Below, piece after piece: positions 16,362 to 26,856 of a stretch of DNA of 32,577 nucleotides. The stretch is taken from positions 1 through 32,577 of the forward strand of contig JAGVAO010000110.1 of the NCBI GenBank assembly GCA_020060235.1, written 5' to 3'. Every line of letters starts with the position of its first letter. The stretch's first letter is position 1. Source of the DNA: Anaerolineales bacterium (GTDB lineage: Bacteria; Chloroflexota; Anaerolineae; Anaerolineales; Villigracilaceae). The notes beneath the pieces were generated by a model. That model was given only the letters and a program-made list of their open reading frames with translations, did no database searches and was not told the origin of the DNA. A program made the translations under genes and the position numbers.

Positions 16362-17230
16362 CGGCGCTGGCGGAAGCGCCGCAAGCGGGCCTGCCACGAG
16401 AAGACCCGTTTGAGTTCCGGCATGACCGCTAGGGCGGCCAATTCGCCCTGCCTGGCAACCCGGGCAACATCGACGTTGTCGAGCAGGCCGATTTCGCCGA
16501 CATCGGGGGAGATGAGCACGTCGGGCCTGTCCATTTGCAGGCGCATTTCGGTCATCTGGCGCTGGCCGATGTCTATCGATTCGGCAAAAATCTGGAACGC
16601 CTGGGTAATGTTCAGGCGGGCGATTTGCTCGATGAGCGTTTTCGGGCCAGACAGCGGCAGGCTGATGGGCGTGGATGGCTGGTCGAGGGGCGGATAGAGA
16701 TTGACCGCCACGACAGGCAGGGAGGGCGACAGGGCGCGCGCCGCGCTAACCGGGACCGGGTTCAGCGTCCCGCCATCGACCAGGCGGTAGGGGGGATAAT
16801 CCCTGGGCGGGAAGATGCCAGGCACGGCCATCGAGCCGAGAACCGCATCGACCACCCCGCCTTTTTTCAGGATGATTTCGCGGCGGCTTTCGAGGTCAAC
16901 GGCTATGGCGGCAAAGGGCAGGTTCAGGTCTTCGATATCACGATTGCCGAGGTGGGTGCGCAGGAAGTCGGCCACGCCGCGCACACCCAGCAGGCCGGGG
17001 CCTTCAACCAGTGGCCAACCGTAGAGCAAGCGCGACAGGTCGACCGAGGCGAAAATGGATTCCATTTCATCGGTCGGGTAACCAAACGCGTAAAACGCGC
17101 CGACGATTGCGCCAATCGATGTGCCAGCCAGGGCGCGCACGCGAAATCCATGCCGCTCGAGGGCGCGCAGGACGCCCAGGTGGGCCACGCCGCGCGAACC
17201 GCCGCCGCTAAGTGCAAGGGTTATGTCCAT
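16358..17230 (-). CDS. Patatin-like phospholipase (RssA/YjjU type)
   Basis: This is a serine-aspartate dyad lipid acyl hydrolase of 290 residues. The oxyanion glycine loop is G9-G-G-S-R-G14, the nucleophile elbow is G-T-S38-I-G, and the second dyad residue is Asp152 in V-D-G-G. The C-terminal 100 residues are helical and basic at the end. Such bacterial patatins act on membrane phospholipids. It is the first gene of a coupled trio with a CPBP protease and a small membrane protein (ATGA overlap at 16358-16361). It starts 68 bases from the divergent esterase gene. Confidence 0.92.
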
Positions 17231-17240
17231 CGAGCGGGAT

Positions 17241-17246
17241 TATAAT
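17241..17246 (+). promoter_or_regulatory. Possible -10 box for the acetyl-xylan-esterase-like gene
   Basis: A perfect TATAAT lies 52 bases before the ATG at 17299 in the 68-bp divergent gap. I see no matching -35 box at 16-18 bp. The hexamer sits inside ATTATAAT, which is symmetric, so it could also serve the patatin gene. Weak evidence. Confidence 0.3.
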
Positions 17247-17298
17247 CTGTCCAGCGAGCCGTTGTTATCAATTTCACACCTGTTCTAAGGAAAATATT

Positions 17299-18267
17299 AT
17301 GCCTTTCTTCGACTTGCCCCTTGACGAACTGCAAACCTACAAACCCGCCCGCACCGAACCCGCCGACTTTGACGCCTTCTGGCAGGCGACCCTCTCCGAA
17401 ACCGGCCAGCATCCGCTGGCGGCACACTTCGAAGCGGTCGAGACCGGGCTGGCGTTGGTGGAATCTTTCGATGTCACTTTCAACGGCTTTGGCGGGCAGC
17501 CGATTAAGGGCTGGCTGAACCTGCCGCGCCAGCGTAGCGGAAAACTGCCCTGCGTGGTCGAGTACATCGGTTACGGCGGCGGACGCGGTCTGCCGCATGA
17601 CTGGCTTTTCTGGGCGTCCGCCGGTTACGCGCACTTTATCATGGATACGCGCGGACAGGGCAGCAGTTGGTCGCGCGGCGATACGCCAGACCTTGAGCCG
17701 CAGGGCAGCAGCCCGCAATATCCCGGCTTTATGACGCGCGGCATCCTCGACCCGAAAACCTATTATTACCGCCGCGTGTTCAGCGACGCTGCTCGGGCGG
17801 TCGAGGCGGCCCGCGCCCACGAAGTGGTGGACGGCAGCCGGGTGGCGGTGACCGGCGGCAGCCAGGGCGGCGGTATCACGCTGGCGGCGGCAGGATTGGC
17901 CGAGGTACAGGCCTCGATGCCGGATGTCCCCTTCCTGTGTCATTACCGCCGGGCGACGCAGATAGTGGCGACCCACCCGTATGCGGAACTCTCGAACTTT
18001 TGCAAAATCCACCGCGACAAGGTTGAGACCGTGTTCGAGACCCTGTCCTATTTCGACGGGGTGAATTTTGCGACCCGGGCCAAGTCCCCGGCCCTGTTCT
18101 CGGTCGGCCTGATGGACGACATCTGCCCGCCTTCGACGGTTTACGCGGCTTATAACCATTATGCCGGGCCAAAGCAAATCCGCGCCTACGAGTACAACAA
18201 CCACGAAGGCGGGGCAAACTTCCAGACAGTTGAAAAGTTGAAGTTTTTGAAGGGGTTGGGCTGGTAG
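17299..18267 (+). CDS. Acetyl xylan esterase/cephalosporin-C deacetylase family (AXE1)
   Basis: It removes acetyl groups from xylan-derived or other acetylated sugars; the family (carbohydrate esterase 7, B. subtilis Cah type) usually works inside the cell. The 322-residue length and the N-terminal signature ([12 protein letters not shown], then D-F-W/F-A-F-W pattern) match. The triad is visible: Ser188 in G-G-S-Q-G-G, Asp273 in [10 protein letters not shown], and His302 in Y-N-N-H-E-G-G. The start is set by AAGGAA before ATG 17299. It is a single-gene unit ending in a strong bidirectional terminator. It fits a saprophytic lifestyle with the sugar-uptake operon at the window start. Confidence 0.92.
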
Positions 18268-18295
18268 GCGAAGAATATACTGGCTACACGACAAA

Positions 18296-18334
18296 AACAA
18301 GGTCGAAGCCATTCCTGCTTCGACCTTGTTTTTT
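18296..18334. terminator. Bidirectional intrinsic terminator
   Basis: A perfect 14-bp stem (18296-18309 with 18317-18330) has a 7-nt loop. T-runs lie on both sides: plus strand T6 ending at 18334, minus strand T from the A-run at 18293-18297. It closes the esterase gene and the long minus-strand block, whose last stop codon overlaps it. Confidence 0.9.
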
Positions 18335-19322
18335 AGAGTCCCATTCCTCGCGTGTAGAGCATCCACATCCCGGCCAGGTAGACAAGTACCAGCGCCAGGG
18401 AGTCGATTTCGATAAACAGCAGCCGCCGCTTAAGGCGCGCCAGGTTGCCCACCAGCGCCATGACGGTCATCAGCAGCCCAAGCACGCTGACCAGCAGGAA
18501 GGCCGGGTCGACTATCGCAAAGAAACGTCCGCCGGTGTAAAACAAGTCGGTCAGGCCAAAGGCAAACATATTGAACAGGTTCGAGCCAAACAGGTTGCCT
18601 ATCGCCATGTCGTCCGCACCGAGTTTGGCGGCGGCGATGGTAGTAACCAGTTCGGGCAGCGAGGTGACCAGCGCCACCAGGGTCGTGCCGATAAAGGTCG
18701 TACCCAGGCCGGTGATGTCGGCAATCCGGTTGCTCGAATCGACCATCCAGGGGGTCAGCACCAGCAGCGAGGCGGCGGCAAGCCCAAAGCCGATTAATCC
18801 GCGCCGCAAGGTGGGAAAGGCGGCGGGTAGAACCTCCTGCAATTCCACCTGGGCTTTGCCCGCCTGCTCATCCTGGATGAAGTAAACCACCGCAAGGTAA
18901 GCCAGCATGAGCAGGATGCTATCCACGCCCACCCAGCCGACCTGCCAGGTAAACTCGTCCAAAAGGAAGAACACCACCATCGTTATCAACAAAACGGCGG
19001 AACTGCCCGAAAGGGCGTGCTTGAGCGCCGCCTTGCGCAGGATGCGCTCGTTTTGGTGTACCAGGTCGAGGATGGCCAGCAATAGCATGTTGAACATGTT
19101 CGAGCCGAGCAAATTTCCCGCCGCAAGGTTGGGCACGCCCTGCCAAACCGCATTCACCGTGGTCAGCACTTCGGGCAGGGAAGTCGCCCCGGCCATCAGC
19201 ACAACGCCGATAAACATTCCACCCAGACCCGTGCGGACGGCTATCACATCGCCATATTTCGCCAGTTGGGTTGCGGCAACGACAATCAGCCCCGCGCTGA
19301 CGACAAATTCCAGCCAGACCAT
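18333..19322 (-). CDS. Sodium/calcium exchanger family membrane protein (CaCA, YrbG-like)
   Basis: This cation:cation antiporter of 329 residues has two inverted halves. Each half carries the alpha-repeat: GATSLPEVLTT with GNLLGSNMFNM in the first half, and ALVTSLPELVTT with GNLFGSNLFNMFAFG in the second. The acidic residue of each S-L-P-E and the asparagines of G-S-N form the ion site in this family. About ten membrane helices are visible. The start directly follows the stop of the PII-like gene (no gap), so the two are co-translated. Bacterial relatives exchange Ca2+ (or K+) for Na+ or H+. It is the last gene before the bidirectional terminator. Confidence 0.93.
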   Translation of the reverse strand: MVWLEFVVSAGLIVVAATQLAKYGDVIAVRTGLGGMFIGVVLMAGATSLPEVLTTVNAVWQGVPNLAAGNLLGSNMFNMLLLAILDLVHQNERILRKAALKHALSGSSAVLLITMVVFFLLDEFTWQVGWVGVDSILLMLAYLAVVYFIQDEQAGKAQVELQEVLPAAFPTLRRGLIGFGLAAASLLVLTPWMVDSSNRIADITGLGTTFIGTTLVALVTSLPELVTTIAAAKLGADDMAIGNLFGSNLFNMFAFGLTDLFYTGGRFFAIVDPAFLLVSVLGLLMTVMALVGNLARLKRRLLFIEIDSLALVLVYLAGMWMLYTRGMGL

Positions 19323-19658
19323 TTACTCCCCCCTCGAGACCATGCCTTTCACCACCGTCAACGGCCAGGCGGTGAAAATGCCGGTGTGCGGCTCATCCAA
19401 ATCACCGGTGATTTCCTCGGTTACGCGCAGGCAAGCCTGAACGCTTTCCTCGTCTGGCACAACGGCCAGCAGGGTCAGGTGCCCTTCCTCGGCGCGCGGA
19501 CTCTGGAAGTAATATCGCGCCGGAACGCGGCTCTGGCGCAGCCGCCCCAGGCCGGTGCTTTCGAGCATGGTCACGCCGCGAATACCGACCGTTTCCCATG
19601 CGCCAATGACCGCGTCCAGTTGGGCCGGGTCGTCAAGGACGAGCAAAATCATGTGCAT
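19323..19658 (-). CDS. Small PII-like (ferredoxin-fold) protein
   Basis: The 111-residue soluble protein begins MILLVLDDPAQLDAVIGAWE and continues G-V-T-M-L-E-S-T-G-L-G. This beta-alpha-beta pattern resembles nitrogen-regulatory PII-like proteins, with a second beta-alpha-beta unit (HLTLLAVVPDEESVQACL). The classical T-loop tyrosine region is not obvious, so it is not GlnB/GlnK. GGAG precedes ATG 19658. It ends directly at the start codon of the exchanger gene. PII-like proteins often bind and control a neighbouring transporter, which makes a regulatory partnership plausible. Family assignment is moderate; the function is inference. Confidence 0.6.
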   Translation of the reverse strand: MHMILLVLDDPAQLDAVIGAWETVGIRGVTMLESTGLGRLRQSRVPARYYFQSPRAEEGHLTLLAVVPDEESVQACLRVTEEITGDLDEPHTGIFTAWPLTVVKGMVSRGE

Positions 19659-19679
19659 TGTAGTCTCCGTTGCTGCCTG

Positions 19680-20246
19680 TTATTTCTTTTTTCGCTGCGC
19701 CGTTATCAGGAAGCGGCCCTCGTCCTTGGGGAATATCCCCTCCTGCGAGGAGCGCACTTCTTCGACCGATAGGAAGGCGCGCGGGTGGATACGGTTGATG
19801 ATGGCCGTGACATCGGCCAGGTCGCGGCGGTGGACAATTGTGTAAATCAACTTCACCTGGCCGTTGGCGCCCTTGCCATCGACCACCGTTGCGCCAAATC
19901 CGGCCTCGTGCAGGGCGTGAGCAACCTGCTCGCCGCCATCCGACAGAATCATGCGCACCACCACCTTGCCGAGCGCCAGCCGGTCTTCGATTTTCATGCC
20001 GACATAATTGCCGACCGCAAACCCGGCAGCATAGGCAAAATAGGCGGGAATGCCGGTGGCCGTCCGGGTAATCTGGCTGATGATGGCGACCCAGATGAAG
20101 ACCTCGATGAACCCGAGCAGCGGGGCAAGATGACGCTTGCCCCGCGAGGTGAAAATAATTCTCAGGGTGCCCAGCCCCACGTCGATGACGCGGGCGATAA
20201 AAATTATCAGCGGCAACCCAAGCCATTCGTACCAGTTGAAATCCAT
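19680..20246 (-). CDS. UPF0316 membrane protein (DUF5698 plus DUF2179)
   Basis: In 188 residues the N-terminal 100 form a three-helix membrane part with the UPF0316 pattern ARVIDVGLGTLRIIFTSRG and A-Y-A-A-G-F-A-V-G-N-Y-V-G. A soluble DUF2179-like domain follows (residues about 105-180), with the Y-T-I-V-H-R-R-D-L-A segment that recurs in YitT-type proteins. Function is not established. It starts 3 bases after the asparagine synthetase stop and precedes the PII-like gene by 21 bases, so it belongs to the same transcript. Confidence 0.82.
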   Translation of the reverse strand: MDFNWYEWLGLPLIIFIARVIDVGLGTLRIIFTSRGKRHLAPLLGFIEVFIWVAIISQITRTATGIPAYFAYAAGFAVGNYVGMKIEDRLALGKVVVRMILSDGGEQVAHALHEAGFGATVVDGKGANGQVKLIYTIVHRRDLADVTAIINRIHPRAFLSVEEVRSSQEGIFPKDEGRFLITAQRKKK

Positions 20247-20249
20247 AGG

Positions 20250-21737
20250 CTATAAACTCCTGCTGTGCCCCATGCCGGGCATAATCTGTTCGTCGGTAAA
20301 ATGTTCGCGCAGTATTTTGTAGTAAAACAGGGATTCCTTGCTGGCTAAATTGTAATCCCATTCGCTGGCAAGCCGGGCACTTTCGCGGCTGAATTCGCTG
20401 TCACTAATTTTCTCATTGGCATGTTCGAGGATAACATCGCGCGAACCGGCCCCATGCGAGAATTTCTGCTTGGGGCGCCAGGCTATTTCGTCAGGAATCA
20501 GGCCAACACAGGCGCGGCGCAGGAGGCGTTTGGGCGTGCGCCCGTTGTGCAGTTTCCATTCCGTCGGCATGCTGAAAGCCAGGGAGATGGACTGGGTATC
20601 CAAAAACGGGACGCGCGCTTCCAGCCCCCAGGCCATCGAAAGTCGGTCGGCGCGCTGCAAGTTGGTGTTGTGCAAGGCGGAAGTGATGTTGCGCAATTCA
20701 ACGTCCAGTTCGGGCGCGTCGGTATAGCGGTCGAGGTAATCATAGCCCGCATAGAGTTCGTCCGCGCCCTCGCCAGTCAGGAAAACCTTGACATAATCGG
20801 CGGTCATCTTGGCGAGAAAATAATTGGGAATGGCGCTGCGCACCAGGGCCGGGTCGAAGGTTTCAAGGTGGTAGATGACATCCGGCAGAGCTTCGAGCAT
20901 TTCCTGGTCGTTATAGACCAGTGTATGATGATTGGTGTCGAGCGCCCTGGCCGCCAGTTCGGAAGCGGCAATATCCTCGCTGCCTTCCATGCCTACGGCA
21001 AAGGTATGCAAATCGTGCAACTCTTCACGCGCCAGGGCTGCGACAATGGTGCTGTCCAGGCCGCCGCTCAGGCTGACTCCCAGGGGTACATCGGCCATCA
21101 GGCGTTTGTGTACTGACTCGCGCAGGATGCTGACAATCATCGGGTAGGCTTCTTCTTCTGTCTGGGCAACCGGGATGATGCCCTGGCCGAGGAAGTAATA
21201 CTGGTGCAGGCCCAATTCCGAGTGATAATAATGCCCGGCAGGGAATTCACGAATATTGTTGCTGAATTCTGCCAGGGCTTTGATTTCAGACGCAAAATAA
21301 ATTTTGCCGTCTTCTTCGGCCCAATACAGCGGCTTGATGCCCAGGGGGTCGCGGGCCAGCAGGAATTTCCCCGGTGTATGCAGGGCAAAGGCAAACATGC
21401 CGTCCAGCATCGAAACTGCTTTTTCGCCAAAACGCGAAAACAGGCGCAGGATGGTTTCGGTATCACTCTGGGTGTCAAAAGTCAGGTCGCCCAGGAATTG
21501 CTGGCGCAGTTCCTGGTGATTATAAATTTCTCCATTGAAGGCAATCCAATAATCTTCGGCTTTCATGGGCTGATGCCCGCCATTCACATCCACAATCGCA
21601 AGACGGGTATGGCCCAAGGTGCCCAACGACAGGGGCTTGACCCCATCGCCGTCCGGCCCGCGATGACTAAGTTTTTGAACCATACTTTGAACTTCACTGG
21701 GGGAATACGCGTTAAAAACGCCACAGATACCACACAT
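20250..21737 (-). CDS. asnB: Glutamine-dependent asparagine synthetase family protein
   Basis: It makes an amide from a carboxylate through an acyl-AMP, using ammonia released from glutamine. The 495-residue protein has the class II glutaminase with nucleophile Cys2 (MCGICGVF), R-G-P-D-G, and N-G-E-I-Y-N at 68-73. The synthetase half has the PP-loop S-G-G-L-D-S at 224-229 and GEGADELYAGY. It is about 60 residues shorter than E. coli AsnB. A clear ribosome site (TAGGAGA) precedes it. It is the next gene after the opine-type dehydrogenase in a LacI-led operon, so it may amidate a pathway intermediate rather than, or as well as, aspartate. True asparagine synthesis remains the default reading. 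Confidence 0.88.
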   Translation of the reverse strand: MCGICGVFNAYSPSEVQSMVQKLSHRGPDGDGVKPLSLGTLGHTRLAIVDVNGGHQPMKAEDYWIAFNGEIYNHQELRQQFLGDLTFDTQSDTETILRLFSRFGEKAVSMLDGMFAFALHTPGKFLLARDPLGIKPLYWAEEDGKIYFASEIKALAEFSNNIREFPAGHYYHSELGLHQYYFLGQGIIPVAQTEEEAYPMIVSILRESVHKRLMADVPLGVSLSGGLDSTIVAALAREELHDLHTFAVGMEGSEDIAASELAARALDTNHHTLVYNDQEMLEALPDVIYHLETFDPALVRSAIPNYFLAKMTADYVKVFLTGEGADELYAGYDYLDRYTDAPELDVELRNITSALHNTNLQRADRLSMAWGLEARVPFLDTQSISLAFSMPTEWKLHNGRTPKRLLRRACVGLIPDEIAWRPKQKFSHGAGSRDVILEHANEKISDSEFSRESARLASEWDYNLASKESLFYYKILREHFTDEQIMPGMGHSRSL

Positions 21738-21795: not shown

Positions 21796-22902
21796 CTACG
21801 ACCTGAATCCTTCGTTGACATAAGCGGTCAACTCAGTAACCGATAAATCCGACAGGCCCAGCCGCTCGACCGTGCGTCCGCGCCGCCAGTAGTCGGTCTG
21901 GTGCAGGATGCTGCCAAGGCGGATGATACTCTCCATGCCGCGCACCGAAACGCCATAGCGTTGGGCCAGCGAAGCGAGCGGGACAAGACTCATCGGCACA
22001 TCTTCAAAAATGTAACGATGATTGAGGGTCGAAGGAGCCTTGATGCCGTAATAGCCCGGCTGGTTATGGATGGCTTCATTCAGGTCACTGCCGGTCGTGT
22101 CGTAGGCCAGCTGGAGCCACTCCATCGCCGTCCGCGCCCGCACGCCGAGGGCTGAAGCCACCGTCACCCGCTCGCGGTCGAGGACTTCAAGGATGCGCGC
22201 TGTCGAGGGCGTCACCCCGTCGATATAGAACTGGAAATCGCCATGCGTGCGCTCAATCCAACCGGCGTTGAGCAGGGTCAGGGCCGGGTGGAAAATGGCG
22301 CCCATGTTGTTCAGGCCGGTATTGAGCACATTAACACCGTCGATAAACTGCGGATAGGCCGGGTTGATTGCGTCCAAAACCGCCTGGGTGCGGGTCGCGG
22401 GCAGGGCCGCCAGCGGAACCGCCTCCTTGATGCGGAAAATCCGCGCCTGGGCCGGGCCGTCGGAGCGCGAAGCGTAGATGAACGTCTCGGCTTCCGAAAC
22501 GGTCACATCTGCCGTACAGCCCGAATCGCTCAAGACCTTGGCAAACTCCAACGCGCCACAGGTACGGCCAGGGTGCAGGACGATAATCTGGCCATCCTTC
22601 AGGTGCGGCGCGCACGAACGGGCAATATCGGCGTGCGCCGAAGAGGGCGTCACCACCATAATCACCTGGGCTTTCGACAGGGCCTCGCCCATATCCGATG
22701 TCGCGGCTTCCAACTTTCCAAACCCGCGCGGGCCGTGCTCGCCCGACTCCAGGTCCAATCCGCCGCGCTTTTTGATAACCTGAATGCGCTCAAACGTGCG
22801 GTTATAGAGCGTGACCTTGAAACCCATCAGGGCCAGGTGCGCAGCCATGGATTTTCCACCATGACCTGCGCCAATGACAGTGTAATATTCAGGGGGGGTC
22901 AT
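21796..22902 (-). CDS. NAD/NADP octopine/nopaline dehydrogenase family protein
   Basis: The family reductively joins an amino acid and a 2-keto acid, or oxidises such opines. The 368-residue protein starts at 22902 with AAGGAG six bases upstream. It opens with a Rossmann dinucleotide site (V-I-G11-A-G-H-G-G16). The C-terminal helical domain carries the family marker N-N-M-G-A-I-F-H-P-A with its conserved histidine, followed by helices typical of octopine dehydrogenase. It sits between the B12 mutase (45 bases) and asparagine synthetase (58 bases). The substrate cannot be deduced. Other members of this fold act on rhizopine-like or metallophore compounds. Confidence 0.85.
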   Translation of the reverse strand: MTPPEYYTVIGAGHGGKSMAAHLALMGFKVTLYNRTFERIQVIKKRGGLDLESGEHGPRGFGKLEAATSDMGEALSKAQVIMVVTPSSAHADIARSCAPHLKDGQIIVLHPGRTCGALEFAKVLSDSGCTADVTVSEAETFIYASRSDGPAQARIFRIKEAVPLAALPATRTQAVLDAINPAYPQFIDGVNVLNTGLNNMGAIFHPALTLLNAGWIERTHGDFQFYIDGVTPSTARILEVLDRERVTVASALGVRARTAMEWLQLAYDTTGSDLNEAIHNQPGYYGIKAPSTLNHRYIFEDVPMSLVPLASLAQRYGVSVRGMESIIRLGSILHQTDYWRRGRTVERLGLSDLSVTELTAYVNEGFRS

Positions 22903-22947
22903 TTCATTCTCCTTGGGATGCCGCAAAATGGCATTTTGTAATCTTGA

Positions 22948-24579
22948 TTACAGGAATTTGGACAGGCGCTGCCGCTCGCTGAGGGCTTTTCCCGTATCAT
23001 CGACGGCCACGCAGGCCCCATCGATGATTCTCGTGCGGACCTTCGCCAACCCGAACTTGTTGTTGCCCAACTGGGGCGCGTCCATAATCCCGGAAGTGAC
23101 CGACTTCGCCAGGGTGGCGGCATCGGCCCAGGGGTCTGTCACCCCGGCGGGAGCCAGGCTGCGAATCGCTTCCAGCGTGGTGGCCGCTTCGGCTTTGAGT
23201 TCGTCAATACGGGCGCGGATGGCAGGGTCTTTGGTCATATCCGGCGCGCCCATGGCGTTTTGGATGGCACGGCGCACGATTTTGCTGGCTTCGATGATAT
23301 CCGGCCCGGTGGCAGCGTGGTGCGCTTCCGTATGCCCGACGATGTGCAGGATGTCGGGCTTCATTGCCATTTGCAGGTAGGTACTGGCGGCCAGGTGTCC
23401 GCGGGCGGCATCGGAGTCGAGCGGGTGAGAGAGCAGACCAATGCGGACTTGCTTCCAAATGCGGAAGCCCTCGCTGGCAAGCGGGGTAATCATCTCCATC
23501 ACCGCCAGCATTTTTGCCAAATCCATCGCATCGCTCAGGCCGGGCGGGCTGTTGAACATCAATTGGGCGATGTAATCGCGCACGCCATATTGTTTGGCGT
23601 TGTAGGCCGCCAGGAAAGCCGAGACGACGAAAATGACATCCGGCGCGTCGCGCATGCCCCAGTGATGCGGCTCATTCAGTTCGACGGGAATATCGCGCTG
23701 TCCGTAGAACGCCATGACTTCCTGGTGTTCGCGAATCGAGCCTTCCAAATCCCAGGGGCCACGTCCGTCCATCTGGTTGAACCAGTAAAGCGGGATGGCG
23801 CACCAGGCGATGTTGATGGTCTCGACATACATTTCGGCCAGTTTGATAAAGTCATCGGTGCCGGAGTAAGTGCGCAGCATCGGGAAGTTGCCGCGCCGAG
23901 AGGCTTTATACAGGGCGCGGTAATCGTCCGGGCTGCGCACGGGCACGCCACCCGCTCCCTTGCGGCGCGGGTCTTGCCGTTCAGGGTGGAAGAAATTCTC
24001 CTGCGCATCCTGGTCGATGCCGAGCGAAATGACGTCCACGGCCTGGGCCTCGGCAATCAGTTCGAGGTCGCGCAGGGTGTCTTCCATGGTCGGCAGGCCG
24101 AAGTGATGACGGATGATAGGGTAAGGGCGCTTCCATAGGATGCGGTCAACCGTGCGCTGGGGGAAGTCCTTCTCACTCAGGTCGCGGGCCGGCTGGCCTT
24201 TCAGGTAGGCCAAAACTTGCTCGGGCGACTCTGAGCCGTCGAAAATCTTGTCAAAAAATCCGCTCAGGTTTTCGGCCTTTTCGGCCACGGGCGGCGTGCC
24301 TGCGAAGGCAAACTTGACCCCGGCTTCGTGCAGTTCAGAGGCCGCTTCGGCAAATTGCCCCAGCAAGCGTTCCCCGGTTTCGGGTGTCAAGCGATAAGAG
24401 ACTCCGACCAAATCGGCTTTTTCGCGTTTGGCGGCTGCGAGCAGTTCATCCACTGGCACTGCCGGGCCAAGAAAAACGGTTTTCCACCCGGCAGTTTCTG
24501 CCAGGCGTAAAAAGTTGGAGACGCCAGCCACATGGACGCACTCGCCCAGGGCGGCGGCGACAACGGTTTTTTGGGTCAT
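22948..24579 (-). CDS. B12-dependent mutase: cobalamin-binding domain fused to a glutamate-mutase-epsilon-like barrel
   Basis: Residues 1-130 form a cobalamin-binding flavodoxin-like domain. The usual D-x-H-x-x-G is C14-V-H16-V-A-G19, keeping the cobalt-ligand histidine, followed by V-G-V-S-Y at 58-62 and F-A-G-T-P near 92. Residues about 155-525 read as a TIM barrel resembling GlmE (methylaspartate mutase epsilon). Recalled points of similarity include GIMDAP with N-N-K near 497-508, a late R-x-R-I-I-D-G, and Arg236 in L-R-T-Y-S-G-T-D. GlmS and GlmE are normally separate chains, so the fusion with the B12 domain first is unusual. Several GlmE substrate residues seem changed. GGAAGGAG precedes ATG 24579, three bases after the upstream dehydrogenase stop. 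The substrate is unknown. Confidence 0.78.
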   Translation of the reverse strand: MTQKTVVAAALGECVHVAGVSNFLRLAETAGWKTVFLGPAVPVDELLAAAKREKADLVGVSYRLTPETGERLLGQFAEAASELHEAGVKFAFAGTPPVAEKAENLSGFFDKIFDGSESPEQVLAYLKGQPARDLSEKDFPQRTVDRILWKRPYPIIRHHFGLPTMEDTLRDLELIAEAQAVDVISLGIDQDAQENFFHPERQDPRRKGAGGVPVRSPDDYRALYKASRRGNFPMLRTYSGTDDFIKLAEMYVETINIAWCAIPLYWFNQMDGRGPWDLEGSIREHQEVMAFYGQRDIPVELNEPHHWGMRDAPDVIFVVSAFLAAYNAKQYGVRDYIAQLMFNSPPGLSDAMDLAKMLAVMEMITPLASEGFRIWKQVRIGLLSHPLDSDAARGHLAASTYLQMAMKPDILHIVGHTEAHHAATGPDIIEASKIVRRAIQNAMGAPDMTKDPAIRARIDELKAEAATTLEAIRSLAPAGVTDPWADAATLAKSVTSGIMDAPQLGNNKFGLAKVRTRIIDGACVAVDDTGKALSERQRLSKFL

Positions 24580-24582
24580 ACT

Positions 24583-25707
24583 TTACACTCCTTCCATGAA
24601 ATACTTTAGAGTGGCCCGGTAAAGGGCGCGCTCGAAATATTCACCATCCAACGATAATTCATCATAACCCCGCTCGAAAAGAACTTCAATCAATGGTTCC
24701 ATCTGACTGGCATAATGGTCCATGCAGGCCTCCGGGTGAACGCCCGGCCACGAATAGCAAGTTACCGTGGTGCGGCGGTTTTTGCTGGGGATGCTTGCCG
24801 GCACAGTTTTGTCCCAGTTGGGGTCGGCAGGGTCAAAAATATACTGGTCAAGGCTGCCCTGCGGAATCCCCTCGATGCCGCGCACCACCGGCGGGTCAGC
24901 GCCCAGAGTGTACGGGTCAACCGCCAGGTCGGCGATGACCGCGTGTTCGGGCAGCCAGGCAATCCAATCATTGGGGATGACCGGCTGGCTGGTATCGCGC
25001 CGCTGGGTGGCATCGACCAGGATGTCGGCCTGGCCCATCAACGATTGCATGGATTGCGGATTGGTGGTGATACTCCGCCCGACCGAAATCGCCAGGGCGC
25101 CCAATCCACCGCCGGCAATATGGTCGTTGTTACGTTCGATATTGCCCAGTTTGGTGGCCGCATCGATGGCATATTTGCCCACCATACCGGTACCCAGAAC
25201 CAGGACCTGGAGCGGACGTCCAGAAGGACTCACAAGGCCGGGCCAGCGTTTTTCAAGCACATCGAAGGCGGCTTCCAGGCCGTTCCAGGCAACCGCCTGC
25301 ATATTTTCAATCAAGCGAATATTGCCGTCATTGGCAACACTATCCATCGAAATTGCCTTAATTCCCAGGTCGGCCAGCCGCTGTACCCGGCGCGGGCGGG
25401 TCGGAAAGTGCAGCATCGAGAAAAGAATGCCGCCAGGCTTCATCGACTGCAACTCATCCGGCTTGGGCGAACGTAAAATCAAAACAACATCCTGCTGGTA
25501 AGCGCCCTGCTGGTTGGTTTTGTGAATCAGGGGGTGGGCGCGTTTGTAATGTTCGAATGTATACCCTGAACGAGAGCCATAACCTTCTTCAATGTAAACA
25601 TGCACGCCCAAAGAGGCAATAAACTGTACAAAATCGGGCAAAAAGACTCGCTTTTCACCGGCTTCATTGCGCATTCGGGGCAAGCCCAATGTCTTTGGAA
25701 CTGTCAT
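24583..25707 (-). CDS. AlaDH/PNT-type amino-acid dehydrogenase paralogue A
   Basis: This 374-residue protein of the alanine dehydrogenase/transhydrogenase/saccharopine dehydrogenase (Lys1-type) superfamily has an N-terminal domain with G-E-K-R20-V-F-L-P and LILR79SP, then His100 in S-M-L-H-F-P. The dinucleotide site is G172-T-G-M-V-G177, and Asp264 lies in A-V-D-P. Arg20, His100 and Asp264 match the substrate-binding and catalytic Arg, His and Asp of alanine dehydrogenase. The catalytic lysine is replaced by Arg79. Its ATG directly follows the TAA of paralogue B, with about 46% identity by hand count over the first 150 residues. The pair may form a heteromer. It probably oxidises or forms an amino or imino (opine-like) acid; the exact substrate is unknown. 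Confidence 0.8.
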   Translation of the reverse strand: MTVPKTLGLPRMRNEAGEKRVFLPDFVQFIASLGVHVYIEEGYGSRSGYTFEHYKRAHPLIHKTNQQGAYQQDVVLILRSPKPDELQSMKPGGILFSMLHFPTRPRRVQRLADLGIKAISMDSVANDGNIRLIENMQAVAWNGLEAAFDVLEKRWPGLVSPSGRPLQVLVLGTGMVGKYAIDAATKLGNIERNNDHIAGGGLGALAISVGRSITTNPQSMQSLMGQADILVDATQRRDTSQPVIPNDWIAWLPEHAVIADLAVDPYTLGADPPVVRGIEGIPQGSLDQYIFDPADPNWDKTVPASIPSKNRRTTVTCYSWPGVHPEACMDHYASQMEPLIEVLFERGYDELSLDGEYFERALYRATLKYFMEGV

Positions 25708-26856
25708 TTATGCTCCATCCTTTCCGTTTTTTGAAATCCAGTTCGAGAGCATCGCGCGGGAAAGCGCGCGCTCGAGAAATTTTCCTTTGCTGTTGATATT
25801 TTGCACCCCGCCCTTCTCTATCAGGGCGCGAATCAGAGGGCGAATTTGGTCGCCATATAACTGCATACATTCTTTTGGATGAATACCTGGCCAGGAATAA
25901 CACGAGACCGAATAGCGCCGATTCTGGGTGGAAACACAGCCTGGCACGCGGTCAAAAGCCGGGTCGTCCGGCCCAAAAACATACTGGTCCAGATTCCCCT
26001 GCGGCATCCCCTCGATGCCCTTGACCTCGTTGGGCCCGTCGGGCGTGCAACTGTACGGGTCGACCGACAAATCGAGCAAAACCGCATGTTCGGGCATCCA
26101 GGCAATCCACTGGTTGGGGATGACGACTTTGCTGGCATCTGGCCGCTGGGTGGCATCGACCAGGATGTCGGTACGACCCAGCAAGTCGCGCATGACGGCC
26201 TCGTTGTAGGTCAGGTCGTAGTCAATTGCAGTAACCTGCACCCCGGGTACACCGCGCCCCGCCAGCGCCCGCCAGAGCGCAACATCGCCATAACGACTGG
26301 CGGCCTGGACAGCATGAACCCCAACCGCTCCCACGCCCATCACCGTGACATGGATGGGATTGCGCGAAGGACTCTCGAGCCCCGGAGCCGGATATAGCCG
26401 CTGCAAGACGCGAAAAGCGACTTCCAGGCCGTTCCAGGCAACGGAGTGCAGGTTCTCAACCATGCGGCGACCGACGTCATCCTTTATCGAATCCAGCGAA
26501 ATCGACTCAACGCCAAGTGAGCGCAAGAGTTCCACCCGTGCCGGACGGGTGGGATAGTGCATCATCGAGATAATGCAGGCGCCGGGCTTGAGCAGGCGCA
26601 GGTCTCTTTCGAGCGGGCAGCGCAAAACAAGCACATAATCCTGCTCGTAAATTTCTGTGTGCGATGCAAACGTCACTTTTGGGGCAATGGCGCGATAATC
26701 GGCCTCGGAAAAGCCCATTGCCGAACCATAGCCATATTCCAGGAAAACCTGCGCGCCCATGCGCTCGAGCCGAGCGACAAACTCGGGCAGGAAATCACGC
26801 TTCTCGCCAAATTCGACGTGCATGCGCGCCAATCCAAAAGTGATGGGTTTGTCCAT
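25708..26856 (-). CDS. AlaDH/PNT-type amino-acid dehydrogenase paralogue B
   Basis: This 382-residue tandem paralogue of the next gene has the same landmarks at nearly the same positions: G-E-K-R20-D-F-L-P, L-R79-C-P, S-M-M-H100-Y-P-T-R-P, G174-V-G-A-V-G179 and Asp266 in S-V-D-P. Both copies share Arg where alanine dehydrogenase has its catalytic lysine, and both share the C-terminal C-Y-S-W-P-G-(V/I)-H-P block, so they form a distinct subfamily. The loop after the dinucleotide site differs: about 195-215 is an insertion-like segment unlike copy A. That suggests divergent substrate or cofactor use, or division of labour in a complex. AGGAGG precedes the ATG. It is the first enzyme gene after the LacI regulator (19 bases). 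Confidence 0.8.
   Translation of the reverse strand: MDKPITFGLARMHVEFGEKRDFLPEFVARLERMGAQVFLEYGYGSAMGFSEADYRAIAPKVTFASHTEIYEQDYVLVLRCPLERDLRLLKPGACIISMMHYPTRPARVELLRSLGVESISLDSIKDDVGRRMVENLHSVAWNGLEVAFRVLQRLYPAPGLESPSRNPIHVTVMGVGAVGVHAVQAASRYGDVALWRALAGRGVPGVQVTAIDYDLTYNEAVMRDLLGRTDILVDATQRPDASKVVIPNQWIAWMPEHAVLLDLSVDPYSCTPDGPNEVKGIEGMPQGNLDQYVFGPDDPAFDRVPGCVSTQNRRYSVSCYSWPGIHPKECMQLYGDQIRPLIRALIEKGGVQNINSKGKFLERALSRAMLSNWISKNGKDGA

Follow-up and report, generated by a model that had tools for sequence, protein, structure and literature searches.

A single-chain relative of glutamate mutase encoded beside an opine-dehydrogenase-like gene in Chloroflexota

Glutamate mutase from Clostridium cochlearium (structures 1cb7 and 6h9e) consists of a sigma chain, GlmS, which carries the B12 domain, and a separate epsilon chain, GlmE, which forms the barrel. 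According to PMC9545868, R66, R149 and E171 of GlmE hold the glycyl part of the substrate, R100 and Y177 hold its acrylate part, and adenosine is held by backbone atoms of G68 and N123. Related barrel folds are found in lysine 5,6-aminomutase and ornithine 4,5-aminomutase, and methylmalonyl-CoA-type mutases are built on the plan of barrel plus B12 domain. Only a small number of carbon-skeleton rearrangements are known to be catalysed by AdoCbl enzymes.

Here we describe a gene pair from the window, by which we mean the whole stretch of DNA analysed (32,577 nucleotides). The first gene encodes a protein, hereafter the mutase, that resembles glutamate mutase in barrel fold and in profile-profile comparison, but both domains lie in a single chain, the B12 domain leading, instead of in two separate chains; the residues corresponding to R66, R100, R149 and E171 appear to be replaced, Cys stands for the Asp before the His ligand, and, unlike glutamate mutase, its gene has an opine-dehydrogenase-like partner. 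By the tests made it is not a member of the glutamate mutase family: the sequence profile, the chain arrangement, the arginine claw and E171 of that family were lacking, while the barrel fold and Glu330 were found. We consider it likely that the protein belongs to the glutamate-mutase branch as an AdoCbl-dependent mutase, that its substrate is small, polar and different from glutamate, and that it is coupled to the dehydrogenase. A single-chain relative of GlmE with a replaced pocket, paired almost strictly with an opine-dehydrogenase-like gene in an under-studied phylum, points to a reaction and a metabolite that are open to test with two purified proteins. The features of the locus are as follows.

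22948-24579, minus strand: mutase gene, open frame of 543 amino acids, single-chain B12 domain plus TIM barrel
24223-24567, minus strand: B12-binding domain of the mutase, residues 5-119 (PF02310, E 2.3e-10)
23050-24180, minus strand: GlmE-like TIM barrel of the mutase, about residues 134-510 (structure model, VIA-align, profile-profile comparison)
21796-22926, minus strand: opine-dehydrogenase-like gene (PF02317, E 6.6e-49), start TTG at 22926 or ATG at 22902
20250-21737, minus strand: asparagine synthase B gene (NF006949, above its cut-off)
18333-19322, minus strand: Na/Ca-exchanger family gene (PF01699, E 1.4e-40), an example of the recurring antiporters

Family and distribution

The mutase gene is real and is part of a tight family. 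Our collection scan returned 227 relatives, from which 80 loci were kept, and all counts out of 80 given below cover these 80 listed of the 227. At every one of the 80 listed loci the record title names a Chloroflexota group. The 37 homologues that we aligned share 68-91% identity with the window protein (38 rows with that protein included). When the family profile was compared with 400 Chloroflexota genomes, 66 genomes matched, 38 of these around the B12 domain only; of the other matches, 26 were copies of full or nearly full length, one (G011) was partial and one (G184) was a distant relative. The genome of the window holds one copy, and within the window's own family the mutase occurs in 10 of 25 genomes, its own included, so that its distribution is patchy. 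No relative was found in the plasmid records and viral contigs searched, and no description of the family among the open PMC papers listed by our literature searches, as judged by title and start of abstract.

Standard family libraries recognised little of the protein. Beyond the B12 domain there was no Pfam match at E values up to 10; in particular PF06368 (GlmE) did not match the barrel at E up to 10, nor was a PF06368 match found in the genome of the window. NCBIfam gave one sub-threshold match, to GlmS (19.1 bits against a cut-off of 110), and PHROGs gave none. In phmmer the barrel region matched antibody heavy chains and designed barrels, and antibodies matched again in a PDB profile search; we took these matches as chance.

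Barrel fold, B12 domain and a MutL-fused relative

The AlphaFold2 model, computed on the 38-row alignment, had a mean pLDDT of 83.3 and a pTM of 0.83, with the lowest confidence near the pocket (block means of 57-66 at residues 191-210, 261-270, 301-310 and 411-420). GlmE was the first-ranked Foldseek hit (1cb7_B, E 7.7e-16). In VIA-align it superposed over 372 residues at an rmsd of 2.9 and Z 32.9, ahead of lysine aminomutase (Z 29.4), ornithine aminomutase (26.1) and methylmalonyl-CoA mutase (19.7). A barrel of a different B12 family, named in the preliminary description of this locus as a result that would count against it, was not the nearest match in this structure comparison. GlmE was also recovered by profile-profile comparison. 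Against set A2, comprising seven Chloroflexota PF06368 proteins that themselves match PDB GlmE at E 1e-206, the probability was 93.4 (E 2.6e-7), rising to 95.6 (E 1.1e-8) against GlmE when the distant relative was added, and the similarity extended over 404 columns, C-terminus included. The other sets were small: a two-row KamD set and a PF09043-related set reached hhalign probabilities of at most 0.8, despite fold Z scores of up to 29.4, and a five-row acyl-CoA-mutase set at most 1.2, with a fold Z of 19.7. Of the families tried, GlmE alone gave a profile match, and it was also the closest in fold. Both the 37 homologues at 68-91% identity and the control profiles, which reached no more than 1.2, indicate that what was observed is more than chance.

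The B12 domain lies ahead of the barrel in the same chain, as had been proposed from the sequence, and its best match in the PDB profile search was GlmS (1be1_A, E 2.3e-4). Two further early observations, that the base-off His16 is kept and that Cys14 replaces the usual Asp, proved invariant. His16 and Gly19 of the C-x-H-x-x-G stretch were present in 38 of 38 aligned sequences (window protein included), as was Cys14, and both Cys14 and His16 recurred in a relative of only 34% identity (L162). The mutase therefore has the His and Gly of the base-off/His-on motif D-x-H-x-x-G, and Cys14 instead of the acid two residues before the His. We also searched 43 other loci with the B12 domain; eight aligned over the motif (some being the same protein), with Glu at this position in four, Asp in two and a gap beside Asp in two, and with the His in all eight. 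It is unusual to find Cys in place of Asp two positions ahead of the cobalt ligand, and this counts against the reading that we prefer. On that reading the N-terminal domain would bind cobalamin base-off, with His16 as the lower ligand. The genome encodes a cobalamin adenosyltransferase (PF01923), which speaks for that reading. A tRNA was the sole Rfam match in the window at gathering thresholds, so no cobalamin riboswitch was seen there.

The 34%-identical relative (L162:4233-8027, G184:C45) is 1264 residues long and has the B12 domain and barrel followed by a PF13941 MutL/GlmL domain (residues 713-1234, E 4.8e-80), which scored 258.6 bits with the NCBIfam GlmL model (NF040745), below its cut-off of 475. 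A domain of the GlmL/MutL reactivase family is fused to this relative and not to the window protein. The fusion ties the mutase family to mutase reactivation, and provides a handle on the repair of such mutases. No close second member of this branch was found among the 400 genomes.

These results bear on whether the protein is a mutase at all. A B12 domain together with a TIM barrel also occurs in methyltransferase systems, and barrels of the dihydropteroate synthase type superposed on our model with Z about 15, so that a B12-dependent methyltransferase, lyase or sensor could be built on the same two folds. We regard this as very improbable, given the Z of 32.9 to GlmE, a profile similarity of 404 columns that takes in the C-terminus, and the GlmL-type domain fused to the distant relative.

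Five genomes also have PF13941 genes of the MutL/GlmL type on the contig that carries the mutase, at a distance of about 13-29 kb from it (G112:C1, G005:C1, G166:C1, G064:C18 and G311:C38). We rejected these as partners, as such genes are also present in genomes without the mutase (PF13941 exceeded its cut-off in 158 of the 400) and have, in the regions compared, conserved neighbours of their own other than the mutase. Two other loci (L118 and L119; G089:C103 and G137:C421) encode divergent two-chain GlmE-like proteins matching PF06368 at about 314-320 bits, and the G089 gene has genes for a B12 subunit and of the MutL type next to it. Loci L122-L130 (genome family f26) gave partial PF09043 matches and apparently represent a divergent aminomutase-like group.

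Mapping of the substrate pocket

To place the GlmE residues on the mutase we combined four versions of the query alignment with two GlmE sets and four settings, giving 32 hhalign runs. The profiles were shallow (Neff about 2); column confidences ranged between 1 and 8 of 9 and were weakest at E171. R66 fell on His159 in 19 runs (a gap in eight, Y153 in three, K150 in two) and R100 on Gln193 in 28 (a gap in four), which agrees with the early assignment of these two claw arginines to non-arginine positions around His159 and Gln193. The same description had taken Arg236 to be a claw arginine that is kept, and here it was mistaken: R149 fell on Tyr238 in 28 runs and a gap in four, and never on R236, which lies two residues away. 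The catalytic glutamate had been placed on a hydrophobic residue of N-I-A-W. That no acid stands there was upheld in all 32 runs, but the position itself moved, E171 aligning in this weakest column with C260 in 16 runs, P263 in 12 and a gap in four, that is, within A-W-C-A-I-P, at or just behind N-I-A-W. Preservation of all three arginines and the glutamate, named at the outset as evidence against a changed pocket, was thus not observed, as none of R66, R100 and R149 aligned with an Arg, and E171 with no acid, in any of the 32 alignments.

On the other side of the cavity the picture was different. E330 of GlmE, which we take to be an adenosine-side residue, aligned with the invariant E418 in 32 of 32 runs, G68 with G161 in 26 (P152 in two, a gap in four) and N123 with G210 in 28, while K326 fell on V414 or a gap. 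Because H16, G161 and E418 are kept and the residues at the R66, R100, R149 and E171 positions are changed, the cofactor side of the pocket looks kept and the glutamate grip appears replaced, as far as the alignments indicate.

Two arginines lie nearby, R157 two residues ahead of the R66 position and R236 two ahead of the R149 position; both are invariant in the 38 sequences and present in the distant relative. They may serve a shifted pocket or claw. If they reach up to the substrate carboxylates, the enzyme would be a glutamate mutase, or a mutase of a close analogue, with a displaced claw; this is the main rival on the pocket, and the conservation of the two residues and the position of GlmE as nearest relative both speak for it. 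We nevertheless think it quite unlikely, because in 28 of 32 runs R100 aligns with Q193, E171 never aligns with an acid, no mutase of the family was seen next to a PF06368-type gene, and its partner gene is related to opine dehydrogenases. The replacement of the glutamate-binding residues indicates instead that the substrate is probably not glutamate.

For the non-glutamate mutase that we favour, the barrel would hold the adenosyl group in a conserved-looking cavity (G161, E418), and a rebuilt substrate pocket would present H159, Q193 and Y238 at the claw positions, without an acid at the E171 position and with the invariant R157 and R236 set two residues ahead of the claw positions on strands 1 and 4. 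The adenosyl radical would abstract a hydrogen from the substrate, and a group would migrate to the neighbouring carbon. The protein probably works like glutamate mutase. Results that weigh against this explanation include the barrel lying below detection by PF06368 in HMMER, the shallow profiles with their weak E171 column, the low model confidence in the pocket loops, and the alignment of R66 with H159 in no more than 19 of the 32 runs. The original suggestion of a B12 mutase acting on something other than glutamate is supported by homology (GlmE-like, with the grip replaced), apart from the one erroneous mapping, R149 corresponding to Y238.

The opine-dehydrogenase-like partner and the gene neighbourhood

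The partner carries a PF02317 domain and resembles a characterised opine dehydrogenase, the two features by which we placed it among the relatives of these enzymes. It matches N-(1-D-carboxylethyl)-L-norvaline dehydrogenase (1bg6_A) nearly end to end (E 1.1e-75), retaining the HP-stretch His and the FEDV-stretch Asp, but differs in adjoining a B12 mutase. An opine-dehydrogenase-like gene adjoins the mutase in 79 of the 80 listed loci, following it in 77 and preceding it in two, with no such gene in the remaining one. In the 77 loci the median gap was 20 bp, and 70 had gaps of at most 100 bp, these lengths depending on start codons picked mechanically. Upstream of the L162 mutase there is again an opine-dehydrogenase-like gene (PF02317, E 9.3e-35), which suggests that the pairing is old.

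The replaced glutamate grip and this pairing together indicate that the mutase probably rearranges a different metabolite. From the computed results, that is, family, fold, domain order, gene pairing and residue replacements, we infer AdoCbl use, mutase chemistry, a non-glutamate substrate and coupling to the dehydrogenase; the substrate or product would be shared with the opine-dehydrogenase-like enzyme, as its 2-oxo acid or amine partner.

For the pathway we examined the wider neighbourhood. Cation antiporters of four kinds lay within 4 kb of the mutase in 22 of the 80 listed loci (58 were without). They accounted for 29 of the 454 genes in this range and for two of the 415 genes between 4 and 10 kb away (Fisher p 1e-6), although the p-value is only a guide as the comparison was post hoc, the loci are related and the bins are cut by contig ends. 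AsnB-type genes occurred within 10 kb in 27 of the 80; MGH1-like glycoside hydrolases were present at 10 loci and GH13 sucrose-phosphorylase-like genes at four. The commonest families listed among 103 operon-adjacent proteins included Na_Ca_ex (six), NhaA-type antiporter, LacI, ATP-grasp and MGH1-like (five each). The asnB gene is a frequent neighbour, but it may be housekeeping, since the window asnB is the only full-length copy found in its genome.

This neighbourhood hints at salt or osmotic physiology, and the mutase/dehydrogenase step is possibly linked to an osmolyte. In its most specific form, the B12 mutase, rearranging the carbon skeleton of a substrate not used by any known mutase, and the opine dehydrogenase would constitute a two-step route to a new branched amino-acid or opine-type osmolyte in Chloroflexota, which we judge unlikely. 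Alternatively the pair may have a catabolic role, in which the dehydrogenase would oxidise an opine or N-substituted amino acid taken up by the cell and the mutase would rearrange its carbon skeleton so that it can enter central metabolism, with no osmolyte link. The gene context of L162 looks catabolic, its pair lying near an amino-acid permease, an RpiR-type regulator, an SBP_bac_5 transporter component and an AAT-family gene, and LacI-type regulators are near the pair in 13 of the 80 listed loci. However, among the 25 families listed the commoner neighbours in the main family are antiporters, AsnB and glycoside-osmolyte-like genes and not importers, so that we entertain a catabolic role only tentatively. 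It concerns the pathway and is compatible with a dehydrogenase-coupled, non-glutamate mutase.

Some further genes deserve mention. At L054:7042-9045 a Na/H exchanger near the mutase has a C-terminal c-di-AMP receptor domain. Open frames without a Pfam or NCBIfam match flank the Na/Ca-exchanger gene of the window (19633-20361 and 17221-18366, minus strand). Alanine-dehydrogenase-like genes upstream were considered as core partners and rejected, being near the mutase in L002 only of the 80 listed loci. In the window, two tandem alanine-dehydrogenase/transhydrogenase-like genes (24583-26856) lie between a LacI gene and the mutase.
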